NCBI GenBank assembly: GCA_029007475.1 | Contig: JAQXHW010000108.1 | Span: 1-32,538 of the forward strand | Length of the DNA stretch: 32,538 nucleotides | Reading direction: 5' to 3' | From: Oscillospiraceae bacterium | GTDB taxonomy: Bacteria > Bacillota > Clostridia > Oscillospirales > Acutalibacteraceae | In this document: piece after piece, positions 20,139 through 28,091 of the stretch | How the letters are laid out: each line of letters opens with the position of its first letter | How positions within the stretch are numbered: position 1 is the first letter of the stretch | Made by a program: the position numbers and the translations under genes | The notes under the pieces: generated by a model | The model's input: only the letters and a program-made list of their open reading frames with translations | Databases searched by the model: none | Told to the model about the DNA's origin: nothing

Positions 20139-21470
20139 ATGAAAATTAAACTTTTCTTTGCCATTGTTTTTTGCAAGGCAGTAAGATTTGCGGCAAAGCT
20201 GTTGGGAAAAGGCTCAAGCCTTCCCGGTCAGCTTACCCTTAAGTTTTTCCCCGATGTGTTAAAATACATAAAGCTGCCCGAAAAGGTTATCGCCGTAACA
20301 GGCAGCTCGGGAAAAACCTCTACTGTTGAGCTTATCGCTCAGGTGCTTAAAAGCGCGGGGGTAAGACTTGCCTATAACAAGGAGGGCTCTAATCAGATTG
20401 AGGGCATTACCACTCTGCTTCTCTGTGCTTCAAGCCTTTCGGGTAAAGTAAAGGCTGATGTTGTGCTTTTAGAGAGTGACGAGAGATATGCCCGCCATAC
20501 CTTCAAATACTTTAAGCCTACTCAGCTTATTATCACAAATTTATACCGCGACCAGCTTACCCGCAACGGCCATCCCGAGTGGGTTTACGATGTGATTTCC
20601 CAGTGTATCGACGACTCCATGGAGCTTATCCTTAATGCCGACGACCCCTTAGTTTCCAAATTCGGCAAGGATAGGAAAAACGTTCGCTATTTCGGGGCGG
20701 ACAGGCTTCCTTTTGATACCGAGAAAAACACCTCTGTTTACGACGACGGAAAGTACTGCCCCTGCTGTAAGGCTCCTATGACTTACTCGTACTATCACTT
20801 TAACCATTTAGGCTCCTATGAGTGCAAAAACTGCGGTCATAAGAAGCAGGCAACGGACTGGACCATTACCGACGCAAGTCTTGAGGAAGGCTTTGTTGTT
20901 ATTAACGGAAAGTATAAGGTTGAGCTTGCGTTCTCAAGTATATATCATTGTTATAATACTCTTGTTGCCTTTGCGGCGGCGGATATTGCAGGAGTTGCGC
21001 CTGAACAGGCGGTTAAGGCTCTCAGCGATTACGATTTGAAAAGCGGAAGAATAGTTAATTTCGTTTTGGGAAATCATGAGGGAACTCTCCTTGTTTCAAA
21101 GCATGAAAACTCCGTTTCCTACGACCAGTCAATCCGCGTGGCAAACTCCGATAAGAGGGACTGTACCGTTGTAGTTATGGTTGACGCCATAAGCCGAAAG
21201 TACAAAACCTATGAAACCTCATGGCTGTGGGATATTGATTTTGAGCTTCTTAAAAGCGACAACATAAAAGAAATTCTCCTTGTGGGTCAATATCACGAGG
21301 ATCTTTTAAGGCGCTTCTCCTTTACCGATATTAACGAGGAAATTATTAAGTCCTACGAAAAGGTATCCGACGCAGTCGAATACTTAAAGAAAAACGGAAG
21401 CAGCTTTGTCTATGTAATCACCTGCTTCTCGGACAAGCAGAAATTCTTGGAATTGACGGAGGTTAAGTAA
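20139..21470 (+). CDS. MurT-like Mur ligase (lipid II isoglutaminyl synthase MurT homologue, atypical)
   Basis: VTGSSGKTSTVELI P-loop, ITNLYRDQLTRNGH, LNADDPLVSKF, Cys4 ribbon CPCCKAP...CKNCG, C-terminal domain with SWLWDIDFELL; adjacent to gatD-like gene. Confidence 0.88.
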   Translation: MKIKLFFAIVFCKAVRFAAKLLGKGSSLPGQLTLKFFPDVLKYIKLPEKVIAVTGSSGKTSTVELIAQVLKSAGVRLAYNKEGSNQIEGITTLLLCASSLSGKVKADVVLLESDERYARHTFKYFKPTQLIITNLYRDQLTRNGHPEWVYDVISQCIDDSMELILNADDPLVSKFGKDRKNVRYFGADRLPFDTEKNTSVYDDGKYCPCCKAPMTYSYYHFNHLGSYECKNCGHKKQATDWTITDASLEEGFVVINGKYKVELAFSSIYHCYNTLVAFAAADIAGVAPEQAVKALSDYDLKSGRIVNFVLGNHEGTLLVSKHENSVSYDQSIRVANSDKRDCTVVVMVDAISRKYKTYETSWLWDIDFELLKSDNIKEILLVGQYHEDLLRRFSFTDINEEIIKSYEKVSDAVEYLKKNGSSFVYVITCFSDKQKFLELTEVK

Positions 21471-22105
21471 TGAGGATTTTATACTTATACTATGACATTA
21501 TGAACCTCTACGGAGAAAGCGGAAATATTCGCATGATTGAGAGAATGTTCCGTGAGGCCGGCAAGGATGTTTCTGTTGAGGTAAAGACCGTAACCGATAG
21601 GAAAATCGACTTTTTGAAATACGATTTTATTTACTGCGGCGCAGGTAGTGAGAATTCCCGAGACGTGGTAATCAGACATCTCAGCTTCTTTAAGGATAGC
21701 CTAAAGGCGGCGTATGAAAAGGGTACGGTTATGCTCTTTACAGGAAACTCCTACGAGATGCTGGGTAAGGAAATAGCAGTAGGGGATAGAAAAATTGAGG
21801 GTATCGGACTCTTTGATTTTACCGTAAAAGAGCAGAGGGTAGACAGATACTCCGGAGACGTTACCTTTAGGTGCAATCTTTTTGAGGGCGAGCTTATTGG
21901 CTATATAAATAAGTGCTCGGAAGCAGAGGGCGTGAAAAATCCCCTGTTCGAGATTGAGCAGGTGGTAGGAACGGTTAAGACCGGAAGTGAGGGCATACAT
22001 GAGAAAAACTTCTTCGGAACTCAGATTATCGGACCGATTTTGGTAAAAAATCCGAGCTTTGCAAACTATATTGTAAATCTCACTCTAAAAACCTTAGAGG
22101 AATAA
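21470..22105 (+). CDS. GatD-like class I GATase-fold protein, predicted catalytically inactive
   Basis: LYYDIMNLYGESGNIRMI, IYCGAGSENSRD, IEGIGLFDF, EGIHEKNFFGTQIIGPILVKNP align with GatD; the CGGYQ and YLHGP catalytic motifs are replaced. Confidence 0.85.
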   Translation: MRILYLYYDIMNLYGESGNIRMIERMFREAGKDVSVEVKTVTDRKIDFLKYDFIYCGAGSENSRDVVIRHLSFFKDSLKAAYEKGTVMLFTGNSYEMLGKEIAVGDRKIEGIGLFDFTVKEQRVDRYSGDVTFRCNLFEGELIGYINKCSEAEGVKNPLFEIEQVVGTVKTGSEGIHEKNFFGTQIIGPILVKNPSFANYIVNLTLKTLEE

Positions 22106-23276: not shown

Positions 23277-23305
23277 TTGACAAAAGCCGCTTTAGGTGAT
23301 ATTCT
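23277..23305 (+). promoter_or_regulatory. Promoter of T-box leader transcript
   Basis: TTGACA - 17 bp - TATTCT just upstream of the T-box leader. Confidence 0.7.
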
Positions 23306-23321
23306 CATACACAACACATTG

Positions 23322-23584
23322 AAAAGCTGTGACGAAGACGGTCGTGGTGCGGATCTTAAAGAGAGTGCGGAGGGTGAAAACGCACATTGAAGCACCAAGT
23401 TGACTTATCACTTCTGAGCCGGAGCCCGAAAGATTAATCGAGTAGACGCTCCCGTAGCTGCTGCGTTAAAGCGTAAGGTTTGTTTGAACCTGAGGGGTGC
23501 CTTTATTATGGGCACAATTTGAGTGGTACCGCGAGTAAGATTTTACCCGTCTCAAAGTCTAAAGACTTTGGGACGGTTTTTTGT
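23322..23584 (+). ncRNA. T-box riboswitch leader, probable Leu (UUG) specifier
   Basis: Stem I base GTGACGAAG.../...CTTATCAC with distal AGAGAG...GAGGGTGAAAA; T-box core GAGTGGTACCGCGAG at 23521; terminator CCGTCTCAAAGTC-TAAA-GACTTTGGGACGG-TTTTTT. Confidence 0.93.
23547..23582 (+). terminator. T-box regulated intrinsic terminator
   Basis: CCGTCTCAAAGTCTAAAGACTTTGGGACGGTTTTTT. Confidence 0.92.
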
Positions 23585-23642: not shown

Positions 23643-25916
23643 ATGAGTACAGAACGTTCACTTACAGAGCTTAAGGAGATCGCCTCCCGAATTAAGGAGA
23701 TGCGTGAGATTATGGGCTGGACCGAGGAAGAGATGGCCGCAAAAACTCAGGTAACTCTCGAAAAGTACGCTCTTTACGAGAGCGCACAGCTTGATATGCC
23801 TTTTACATTTATCCACAAGTGTGCGTTGGCATTTGATATTGAACTTATTGATTTGCTCGAAGGTCACGGAGCAAGACTTACCTCCTACACCGTAACCCGT
23901 AAGGGAAAGGGTCAGGAGACCGCAAAAGAGGAAGGTATCAACATCCAGAACCTTGCTCCTCAGTTTAGAGATAAGATAGCCGAGCCATATTGGGTTCGTT
24001 ACGAGTATTCTCCCGAACAGCAGAACAAGCCCATTCAGCTTCAAAAACACGCAGGCCAGGAGTTTGACCTTGTCCTCAAGGGCAGTCTTAAGGTGCAGAT
24101 CGGCGAACACGTGGAGTATCTGCGCGAGGGCGACAGCATCTACTACAATTCCTCAACCCCCCACGGTATGATTGCAATCGGAGGCGAGGACTGTGTATTC
24201 GTAGCGGTTGTTCTTCCGGGAGAAGACACTCCCACCGAGAAAGTTAGTCAGAGCATCGCCAAGGCCCGTAAATCCGAGTCCTTAATCTGCGAGAAGTTCG
24301 TAAAACCTCGCGAGAACGAGAAAGGCGAGCTTCAAAGTATCGACTTTGAAAATACCGATACCTTTAACTTTGGTTTTGATATTGTTGATAAGATTGCCGA
24401 CGCGTATCCCGACAAGCTGGCAATGCTTCATATTGACAATAAGGACGTTGAAAGACGTTTTACCTTTAAGGATATTAAGCGTGCGTCCAATCAGTGTGCA
24501 AACTACTTTGCTTCCCTGGGAATTAAAAAGGGCGACAAGGTTATGCTTGTGCTGAAAAGACACTTCCCCTTCTGGTTCGCTATGGTAGCGCTTCATAAGC
24601 TGGGAGCGATTGCAATTCCCGCAACAAACCAGCTTAAGGACCACGATTTCGAGTACCGCTTCAATGCCGCTGAGGTTTCCGCAATACTCTGCACAGGTGA
24701 CGGCGATACCGCAGAAATCGCAAGCCGTGCCGCTGAAAAATGTCCCCAGGTTAAAACTAAGATTTTGGTTTCCGAGGACAGAACTCTTGAGGGCTGGCGC
24801 GATTTTTACAGCGAATATACCCGCTTCTCAGGTAAGTTTGAGAGGACTGAGGACAGCTCCTGCGGTGACGAAACCGCCCTCATGTTCTTTACCTCCGGCA
24901 CAACAGGCAATCCCAAAATGGCAGCCCATGCCCATACCTATGCCCTCGGTCACTTTGTAACCGCAAAATACTGGCACTGCTGTGAGCGTGACGGCTTACA
25001 CTTAACAATTTCCGACACAGGCTGGGGCAAATCCCTTTGGGGTAAGCTCTACGGTCAGTGGCTCTGCGAGGGAGCTGTCTTTGTCTATGACTTTGACCGC
25101 TTTGACGCGGCAAAGATTATGCCTATGTTTGCAAAGTACGGAATTACCACCTTCTGCGCACCTCCCACAATGCTCAGAATGCTCATTCGTGAGGACCTTT
25201 CTCACTACGATTTATCATCAATTCACCATCTGACAACAGCCGGTGAAGCGCTCAACCCCGAGGTATTCAATCAGTTCAAAGCCGCAACGGGACTTGAGAT
25301 TATGGAGGGCTTCGGTCAGACCGAAACAACCCTTGCTATCGGTAACCTCTACGGCACGGTTCCCAAAATCGGCTCAATGGGCAAGGCTTCTCCCCAGTTT
25401 GACATTGACATTGTTGACCCCGACGGAAATTCCGTTGCAAATGCTGAGGTTGGCGAAATTGTTATCCGTACCGACAGAGGAAAGCCCTGCGGACTGTTTA
25501 ATGAATATTACCGCGATGATGAGAAAACCCGTGACGCATGGCACGATGGAATGTACCACACCGGCGACACCGCATGGCGTGATGAGGACGGCTATTTCTG
25601 GTATGTTTCACGTATTGACGACGTTATTAAGTCGTCGGGCTACCGTATCGGACCCTTCGAGATTGAAAGCGTTATCATGGAGCTTCCCTACGTTTTGGAG
25701 TGCGGCGTTTCCGCTGTGCCCGATGAGGTTAGAGGTCAGGTAGTTAAAGCAAGCATCGTGCTTACTAAGGGTACAGAGGGTACCGAGGAGCTTAAAAAGG
25801 AAATTCAAAACTACGTAAAGAGCCATACAGCTCCCTACAAATACCCCAGAGTTGTTGTTTTCCGTGATGAACTCCCTAAGACAATCAGCGGAAAAATTCA
25901 GAGGAACAAGCTGTAA
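23643..25916 (+). CDS. XRE-type HTH + cupin + AMP-dependent acyl-CoA synthetase fusion
   Basis: HTH region (RIKEMREIMGWTEEEMAAKTQVTLEKYALYE), cupin (HAGQEFDLVLKGSLKVQIGEHVEYLREGDSIYYNSSTPHGM), ANL motifs MFFTSGTTGNPKM, EGFGQTETT, YHTGDTAWRDEDGYFWYVSRIDDVIKSSGYRIGPFEIE, PKTISGKIQR. Confidence 0.93.
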   Translation: MSTERSLTELKEIASRIKEMREIMGWTEEEMAAKTQVTLEKYALYESAQLDMPFTFIHKCALAFDIELIDLLEGHGARLTSYTVTRKGKGQETAKEEGINIQNLAPQFRDKIAEPYWVRYEYSPEQQNKPIQLQKHAGQEFDLVLKGSLKVQIGEHVEYLREGDSIYYNSSTPHGMIAIGGEDCVFVAVVLPGEDTPTEKVSQSIAKARKSESLICEKFVKPRENEKGELQSIDFENTDTFNFGFDIVDKIADAYPDKLAMLHIDNKDVERRFTFKDIKRASNQCANYFASLGIKKGDKVMLVLKRHFPFWFAMVALHKLGAIAIPATNQLKDHDFEYRFNAAEVSAILCTGDGDTAEIASRAAEKCPQVKTKILVSEDRTLEGWRDFYSEYTRFSGKFERTEDSSCGDETALMFFTSGTTGNPKMAAHAHTYALGHFVTAKYWHCCERDGLHLTISDTGWGKSLWGKLYGQWLCEGAVFVYDFDRFDAAKIMPMFAKYGITTFCAPPTMLRMLIREDLSHYDLSSIHHLTTAGEALNPEVFNQFKAATGLEIMEGFGQTETTLAIGNLYGTVPKIGSMGKASPQFDIDIVDPDGNSVANAEVGEIVIRTDRGKPCGLFNEYYRDDEKTRDAWHDGMYHTGDTAWRDEDGYFWYVSRIDDVIKSSGYRIGPFEIESVIMELPYVLECGVSAVPDEVRGQVVKASIVLTKGTEGTEELKKEIQNYVKSHTAPYKYPRVVVFRDELPKTISGKIQRNKL

Positions 25917-26009: not shown

Positions 26010-26042
26010 ATGCCTCTTGCTTTTTGGCAAGGGGCATTTCTC
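26010..26042 (+). terminator. Probable terminator between acyl-CoA synthetase and metG
   Basis: ATGCCTCTTGC-TTTTTG-GCAAGGGGCAT followed by an interrupted T-rich tract. Confidence 0.55.
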
Positions 26043-26055
26043 TTGCTTATTTATA

Positions 26056-26083
26056 TTGATTTTTCCTGCGGTTGTGATATAAT
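26056..26083 (+). promoter_or_regulatory. metG promoter
   Basis: TTGATT - 16 bp - TATAAT with extended -10 TGA. Confidence 0.65.
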
Positions 26084-26126: not shown

Positions 26127-28091
26127 ATGAACAAGAAACCCTATTACATCACCACCGCCATTGCTTACACCTCCCGTAAGCCTCATATCGGCAACAGCTA
26201 CGAGATTGTTCTCACCGACGCTATTGCGAGATATAAGCGCATGCGCGGCTATGATGTTTTCTTTCAGACAGGAACCGATGAGCACGGTCAGAAAATAGAG
26301 AAATACGCCGAGAGCGAGGGCGTTACCCCTAAGGAGTACGTTGATAAGGTCTGCGGTGAAATCAAGGATATCTGCGACGCTCTTCACATCTCCTACGATA
26401 AATTTATCCGTACAACAGATGCCGACCACGAGGCAGTTGTGCAGAAGATTTTTAAGAAGCTCTACGACCAGGGCGATATCTACAAGAGCACCTATGAGGG
26501 AATGTACTGTACTCCCTGCGAGAGCTTTTTGACCGAGAGCCAGCTTGTTGACGGCAAGTGTCCCGACTGCGGTACTCCCGTACAGAAAACTCAGGAGGAA
26601 GCCTATTTCCTCAGACTTTCAAAATATCAGAAACAGCTTGAGAATTATATCGAGCAAAATCCCGACTTTATCTACCCCGAAAGCCGCAAAAAGGAAATGC
26701 TCAACAACTTCATTAAACCCGGACTTCAGGATTTATGCGTTTCCCGTTCGAGCTTTAAGTGGGGCGTGCCTGTAAGCTTTGACGATAAGCATGTTATCTA
26801 TGTTTGGATTGACGCGCTTTCAAACTATATCACCGGTTTAGGCTACGACCCCGACGGCAACCACGGCGAGCTTTACAAGAAGTATTGGCCTGCGGACGCT
26901 CATATTATCGGCAAGGACATTGTACGCTTCCATACTATCTATTGGCCTATTATCCTCATGGCTCTGGGCGAGCCTTTGCCCAAGCAGGTTTACGGCCACC
27001 CCTGGCTTCTTTTCGGCGAGGATAAGATGAGCAAGAGCAAGGGCAACGTAATCTATGCCGACGACCTGATTAAGCTCTTCGGTGTTGACGCGGTCAGATA
27101 CTATCTGCTCTCAGAGATGCCCTTTGCCAACGACGGCTCAATTACCTTTGAAGCTATGATTGAGCGGTTTAACTCCGACCTTGCAAATACCTTAGGCAAT
27201 CTCGTTAACCGTACAATCGCCATGAATAATAAGTATTTCGGCGGCATTGTGCAGAGTCCTACGGCTAAGACCGATTTAGATAAGGAACTGGAAGCCTTCT
27301 GCTTTGAGACTATGGCTAAGGTTGAGAAGAATATTGACACCTTCCACATGAGCGACTGCTTAGAAGCCGTAATTAACCTTGCAAAGCGCTGCAATAAGTA
27401 TATCGACGAAACTACTCCCTGGGCACTTGCAAAAAACGAGGAGGATAAGGAGAGATTAGGTACAGTTCTTTATAACCTCTTAGAGTCTATCCGATTTATT
27501 GCGGTGCTTCTCACTCCCTTTATGCCCGATACCGCCAAGGCAATTTTCGCTCAGATGAACTGTGATATAGATACCTACGAGAGCCTTGACAGCTTCGGAA
27601 AGCTCAAAGCCGGCACAAAGCTCTCAGAGGCAACTCCTCTCTTTGTAAGAGTTGATGCCGAGAAGATGTTTGCAGAAATCGAAGCCGCACGCATGGAAGC
27701 TCAGAAAACCTCAAAGTCAATGGAGGAGGTAAACGAGGAAACCGAGAAAAAGCCTCTCTATGAGGGAATCGCTCAAATTGGCATAGAGGACTTCGGCAAG
27801 GTGGATTTGAGAGTTGCTCAAATCGTTGAATGCGAGCCTGTTAAAAAGGCCAAAAAGCTCTTAAAGCTCACCCTCAATGACGGCGAAAAGGAGCGCACCG
27901 TTGCAAGCGGTATTGCCCAGTATTATAAGCCTGAGGAGCTAAAAGGTCACAAGGTTATTCTGGTTCAGAACCTGAAGCCTGCAACCCTATGCGGAGTTGA
28001 AAGCAACGGCATGATTCTTGCCGCCGACACAAACGGTACCGTTAAGGTTATCTTTGTAGACGGTATGGATAACGGCGCAAAGGTACGCTGA
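26127..28091 (+). CDS. metG: Methionyl-tRNA synthetase with C-terminal tRNA-binding (EMAP/Trbp111-like) domain
   Basis: PHIGNSYEIVLTDAIARYKRMRGYDVFFQTGTDEHGQKI, Cys4 zinc knuckle, KMSKSKGN, C-terminal VDLRVAQIVECEPVKKAKKLLKLTLNDG. Confidence 0.97.
   Translation: MNKKPYYITTAIAYTSRKPHIGNSYEIVLTDAIARYKRMRGYDVFFQTGTDEHGQKIEKYAESEGVTPKEYVDKVCGEIKDICDALHISYDKFIRTTDADHEAVVQKIFKKLYDQGDIYKSTYEGMYCTPCESFLTESQLVDGKCPDCGTPVQKTQEEAYFLRLSKYQKQLENYIEQNPDFIYPESRKKEMLNNFIKPGLQDLCVSRSSFKWGVPVSFDDKHVIYVWIDALSNYITGLGYDPDGNHGELYKKYWPADAHIIGKDIVRFHTIYWPIILMALGEPLPKQVYGHPWLLFGEDKMSKSKGNVIYADDLIKLFGVDAVRYYLLSEMPFANDGSITFEAMIERFNSDLANTLGNLVNRTIAMNNKYFGGIVQSPTAKTDLDKELEAFCFETMAKVEKNIDTFHMSDCLEAVINLAKRCNKYIDETTPWALAKNEEDKERLGTVLYNLLESIRFIAVLLTPFMPDTAKAIFAQMNCDIDTYESLDSFGKLKAGTKLSEATPLFVRVDAEKMFAEIEAARMEAQKTSKSMEEVNEETEKKPLYEGIAQIGIEDFGKVDLRVAQIVECEPVKKAKKLLKLTLNDGEKERTVASGIAQYYKPEELKGHKVILVQNLKPATLCGVESNGMILAADTNGTVKVIFVDGMDNGAKVR

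Follow-up and report, generated by a model that had tools for sequence, protein, structure and literature searches.

We consider it likely that, in the window (the whole analysed stretch of 32,538 nucleotides from an Oscillospiraceae bacterium), an AUC-specific T-box riboswitch responding to isoleucine shortage controls a 2-methylbutyrate-activating acyl-CoA synthetase, which would feed isoleucine synthesis via a 2-oxoacid:ferredoxin oxidoreductase (VOR) and the branched-chain aminotransferase IlvE. This reading draws on what the sequence shows, namely the T-box itself, the register of the AUC codon, valine and leucine sister systems and a conserved VOR/IlvE neighbourhood in relatives, and an anticorrelation of these with IlvC and LeuB. 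We infer from it the binding of tRNA and the induction, as well as the substrate and the flux.

According to the proposed mechanism, the leader would act as a class I (transcription-antitermination) T-box that binds uncharged tRNA-Ile(GAU) through its AUC specifier. On isoleucine limitation, the A73CCA end of the uncharged tRNA would pair with UGGU and stabilise the antiterminator, allowing RNA polymerase to read through into the synthetase gene. The synthetase would convert 2-methylbutyrate, ATP and CoA to 2-methylbutyryl-CoA, VOR would reductively carboxylate this product to 3-methyl-2-oxopentanoate, and amination by IlvE would yield isoleucine. Rumen bacteria make isoleucine from 2-methylbutyrate (PMC7356843), and the same physiology is known for methanogens (PMC10658910). 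The predicted chemistry is that by which rumen anaerobes reductively carboxylate branched-chain volatile fatty acids (work by Allison and by Robinson and Allison, cited in PMC7356843), with 2-methylbutyrate leading to isoleucine and isobutyrate to valine; what is added here, for each branch, are candidate genes for the activation step and a regulatory RNA. One search pattern applied to the incomplete assembly of the window genome did not find tRNA-Ile(GAU).

Architecture of the T-box leader

The T-box leader of the window is real. All parts that had originally been predicted (promoter, stem I, distal motifs, T-box sequence and terminator) could be located in the sequence or the fold (Table 1), and the covariance-model search proposed at that time recovered the leader as a full-length match to the Rfam family RF00230 (cmscan; model positions 1-219, 80.1 bits, E 9.6e-18). 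Because this score is below the gathering score of 93 bits, a default Rfam scan misses the leader, which is one of eight T-boxes in the window genome. Its UGGN-type T-box sequence, TGGTACCGCG, is accompanied by alternative antiterminator and terminator structures, and the gene following it, as predicted an AMP-dependent acyl-CoA synthetase, starts 59 nt past the end of the terminator. Minimum free energy folding of the whole leader neither recovered the T-box fold nor gave significance (z -1.68); stem I folded alone did yield the T-box fold. In an alignment of 30 leaders of relatives, 26 of the 53 predicted pairs showed compensatory changes.

Table 1. Features of the T-box leader and the acyl-CoA synthetase gene in the window.
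Feature	Position	Strand	Details and evidence
Sigma-70-type promoter	23277-23305	+	TTGACA 23277-23282, 17-nt spacer, TATTCT 23300-23305; sequence
T-box leader RNA (RF00230)	23320-23557	+	cmscan; compensated pairs in relatives
Stem I lower helix, 5' strand GAAG	23334-23337	+	Pairs with CTTC 23411-23414; fold; invariant in 30 leaders
GGTC, 5' helix strand just above specifier loop	23340-23343	+	Pairs with GACT 23402-23405; fold; corresponding pairs show compensation in relatives
AGAGAG stem I distal bulge motif	23360-23365	+	Sequence; Rfam alignment
GGTGAAA stem I terminal loop motif	23373-23379	+	Sequence; Rfam alignment
Specifier codon AUC (Ile)	23407-23409	+	Inside 5-nt bulge UAUCA 23406-23410; fold, conservation, TBDB rule
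Stem I lower helix, 3' strand CTTC	23411-23414	+	Fold
T-box sequence TGGTACCGCG	23524-23533	+	UGGU pairing with A73CCA end; sequence
Intrinsic terminator	23547-23584	+	Hairpin 23547-23576 (-20.9 kcal/mol) and T-run; fold
HTH-cupin-acyl-CoA synthetase fusion, 757 aa, predicted 2-methylbutyrate:CoA ligase	23643-25916	+	Pfam, NCBIfam, PDB 3ETC
HTH domain (HTH_19)	23685-23861	+	Pfam; weak, below cut-off
Cupin_2 domain	24036-24209	+	Pfam; 44.9 bits, cut-off 27.2
AMP-binding and AMP-binding_C domains	24390-25895	+	Pfam
Candidate hairpin 3' of synthetase	26011-26037	+	Sequence, by eye

The low score might suggest a decayed or non-functional copy. This explanation is highly unlikely, as promoter, T-box sequence, terminator and specifier are intact, and covarying leaders were found, among the genes with enough upstream DNA, for 86 of 95 belonging to the window enzyme's own clade (Ile type) and for 49 of 54 encoding a related Val type described below. 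The T-box sequence contained TGGT in all 142 leaders examined, and the UGGU of the window leader predicts the discriminator base A73, as had been proposed; since A73 is common in tRNA-Ile, tRNA-Leu and tRNA-Val alike, this motif cannot discriminate between the three amino acids. Hairpin-like interspersed repeats occur within some T-box leaders of other loci and leave the conserved core unbroken (T-box positions 9352 in L043, 10741 and 7568 in L044, and 7628 in L045).

The leader has the stem I distal motifs, specifier bulge, UGGN sequence, antiterminator/terminator and isoleucine codon of class I transcriptional RF00230 T-boxes with isoleucine specificity, such as those at ileS. In place of a tRNA synthetase, a transporter or the classical ilv operon, the target here is an acyl-CoA synthetase, and such targets are unmentioned in Wels 2008 (PMC2494555).

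Identification of the specifier codon

The specifier codon is AUC (isoleucine). In stem I folded alone, the helix GAAG/CUUC is followed by an internal loop, whose 5' strand is AC and whose 3' strand is UAUCA, and then by the helix GGUC/GACU. The position of the UAUCA bulge directly above GAAG/CUUC identifies AUC as the specifier and A23410 as the base after it. The TBDB rule, which takes the specifier from the last five bulge bases and prefers the middle frame (PMC7778990), gives the same codon when applied to this bulge. The specifier columns read A, T and C in 30 of 30 aligned leaders, with a variable following base, and AUC was obtained for all 85 machine-parsed leaders of the Ile-type clade, some of whose loci are near-copies, so that these are not 85 independent cases. 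The parser used was anchored on the paired lower helix and blind to the codon, and replaced a simple regular expression that had mis-split many leaders; among the Ile-type leaders left unparsed, inspection by eye gave AUC for two, and a third is truncated. As a control, reading other T-boxes of the window genome in the same register returned the expected codons (UGC at a cysE-like, UUC at a pheS-like, ACC at a thrS-like and CUC at a LeuA-like gene). The leader thus carries an invariant AUC in the internal loop of stem I, which would match the predicted function of the gene.

Originally, the specifier had been assigned to a leucine codon, UUG, and the enzyme to the activation of isovalerate for leucine synthesis. 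A TTG does exist at 23400-23402 and UGGU would fit A73 of tRNA-Leu, but G23402 is paired in the helix GGTC/GACT, the TTG columns are free to vary among the 30 leaders, and the triplet lies outside the last five nucleotides of the specifier bulge. Moreover, relatives have a different synthetase under a leucine T-box (CUC/CUG) in a separate operon, and the Staphylococcus aureus enzyme MbcS performs poorly with isovalerate, so that we attach next to no credence to this reading. Fold and conservation also led to the rejection of the overlapping alternatives GTT (Val) and GAC (Asp). What also holds of the original prediction is the activation of a branched-chain acid for reductive carboxylation, as the likely role; its assignment to leucine and isovalerate was abandoned for the reasons given.

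Another T-box of the window genome, with a probable UAC (Tyr) specifier (L067, position 4174; contig C24), lies before a contig-truncated AMP-binding ligase gene, perhaps for a 4-hydroxyphenylacetate ligase feeding tyrosine.

The acyl-CoA synthetase and its predicted substrate

The enzyme is an AMP-dependent acyl-CoA synthetase by its matches to PF00501 (214.6 bits) and PF13193 (77 bits), both over the cut-off. The closest solved structure is PDB 3ETC (E 7e-187), the archaeal MacsMa of Methanosarcina acetivorans, with which the window enzyme has the GWGK motif in common and to which its HTH-cupin part does not align. To our knowledge, no T-box is associated with MacsMa. The best NCBIfam model is that of MbcS (NF047394), the S. 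aureus methylbutyryl-CoA synthetase, a branched short-chain acyl-CoA synthetase (PMC10026030) that serves fatty-acid synthesis; the match of 434.5 bits against an equivalog cut-off of 850 bits places the window enzyme outside this family. MbcS selects 2-methylbutyrate and isobutyrate and is also poor with propionate (PMC10026030), and 2-methylbutyrate is the preferred substrate of MacsMa (PMC10455477).

Nearly all positions that separate the Ile-type from the Val-type paralogs are located in or beside the HTH-cupin part, and only two, 462 and 477, lie in the catalytic part. At position 462, the Val type has Ala where the Ile type and 3ETC have Gly, and Gly462 may accommodate a larger acid than Ala. 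By analogy, the substrate of the window enzyme is probably 2-methylbutyrate.

The synthetase gene is isolated in the window, and the VOR genes and an IlvE fragment of the same genome are located on other contigs. As the methionyl-tRNA synthetase gene (ATG at 26127) has, by eye, its own promoter-like site at 26056/26078, the acyl-CoA synthetase is probably transcribed alone. Co-transcription of the two was rejected for this reason and because the gene order is not kept in the nearest relative (G010), whose enzyme is 96% identical to that of the window. Elsewhere in the window, a MurT/GatD-like pair (peptidoglycan amidation) is found at 20139-22105, upstream of an aldolase gene.

Sister systems in related genomes

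Relatives of the window genome (among those named, almost all are gut or rumen Clostridia MAGs) contain a tandem paralog of the enzyme with about 62% identity and a T-box of its own. In the same register, the specifier of this Val type is GUA (n = 46) or GUC (n = 4), a synonymous swap between two valine codons; the other readings comprised one mis-parse, two leaders that escaped the parser but show GUA or GUC on inspection by eye, and locus L081, whose position in the tree is outside the Val clade. The codons track the protein tree, with one clade being all Val and the remainder all Ile. A third operon in relatives encodes a LeuA-like protein and a TIM-barrel-acyl-CoA synthetase fusion; of the T-boxes found there that were readable by eye, nearly all have CUC or CUG (Leu). 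The pieces of this operon in the window genome are split between contig C54 (fragments of the LeuA-like, TIM-synthetase and aminotransferase genes) and contig C95 (Leu T-box). At L041 (10465-15167), L089 and L069, the Leu T-box operon consists of the LeuA-like gene, a xylose-isomerase-like TIM barrel fused to the acyl-CoA synthetase, and an amidohydrolase gene.

Two further loci of the window genome deserve mention. L062 (173-4068; contig C106) contains genes for a P-loop ATPase and VOR alpha, beta and gamma, and an HTH-cupin gene that is cut by the contig end and shares 87% identity with a third branch of the family, one that has no T-box (L079). At L063 (5910-10005; contig C96), likely IorA, IorB, phenylacetate-CoA-ligase-like and ACT genes lie in a row, which is likely an aromatic counterpart of the branched-chain route.

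Genomic neighbourhood and the classical ilv-leu pathway

Among 44 named loci with a length of 14 kb or more, the neighbouring genes included VOR alpha in 41, VOR beta in 39 and IlvE in 32 cases, and VorB and IlvE scored above the NCBIfam cut-offs in a representative cluster. The window genome encodes both VOR (C106) and a branched-chain aminotransferase fragment (C54), the two further enzymes of the proposed route. Another possible role of the synthetase is mainly to supply 2-methylbutyryl-CoA as primer for anteiso branched-chain fatty acids, with the Ile T-box serving as a proxy signal. The best NCBIfam model, MbcS, does have a fatty-acid role, but this explanation appears improbable given that the neighbours are VOR and IlvE with no fatty-acid genes, that sister genes have Val and Leu T-boxes, and that genomes with the paralogs have lost IlvC and LeuB.

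In a first genome set, IlvC and IlvD were absent from nearly all enzyme-bearing genomes. A larger set comprised 249 genomes of the order with at least 90% completeness, 24 of them with the tandem pair. IlvC was present in 1 of these 24 versus 140 of the 225 others (Fisher p 1.6e-8, shared ancestry ignored), and in each of the seven genomes that have a close Ile-type enzyme alone (a group defined post hoc; p 3e-6, shared ancestry ignored). LeuB was above the cut-off in 1 of the 24 tandem genomes and in 6 of the 7 Ile-type-only genomes. In the assembly of the window genome (93% complete), ilvC, ilvD and leuB were not found, which could be due to assembly gaps, and the ilv-leu region of G010 had no long match there. 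This nearest relative has kept a full ilv-leu operon, and the route may therefore be supplementary in the lineage of the window. A Leu (CUC) T-box at about 1215-1500 of L088 (G010, contig C66) precedes this ilvA-leuACDB-ilvBNCD-type operon.

The presence of IlvC in G010 and in the seven Ile-type-only genomes would also suit an enzyme that activates propionate under an Ile T-box, the propionyl-CoA being carboxylated to 2-oxobutyrate and IlvBCD completing isoleucine. We regard this as unlikely, because most enzyme-bearing genomes are without IlvC and IlvD, both of which would be required, and because of the substrate preferences of MbcS and MacsMa.

Implications for branched-chain amino acid synthesis

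That rumen and gut anaerobes use branched volatile fatty acids to form branched-chain amino acids has long been known, and ruminants receive these fatty acids in their feed. The RNA mechanism proposed here is ordinary; what appears undescribed in the papers searched is its target gene and the three-way layout of Ile, Val and Leu. No T-box link to these synthetases was found in the literature searched, the scope of which did not extend to the two main T-box surveys.

A broader reading, held tentatively and with slightly less than even confidence, is that these systems together form a complete salvage of isoleucine, valine and leucine from 2-methylbutyrate, isobutyrate and isovalerate. Each activating enzyme would be controlled by a separate T-box specific for the amino acid it leads to, a single VOR and a single aminotransferase would serve all branches, and the route would replace IlvC and LeuB; the HTH-cupin part found in the Ile and Val enzymes may bind DNA and sense a ligand. 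As the codon of the T-box names the amino acid product, it provides a testable substrate for each unassigned acyl-CoA synthetase, the predictions being 2-methylbutyrate for AUC, isobutyrate for GUA/GUC and probably isovalerate for CUC/CUG. T-box codons would also predict which gut bacteria depend on branched acids.
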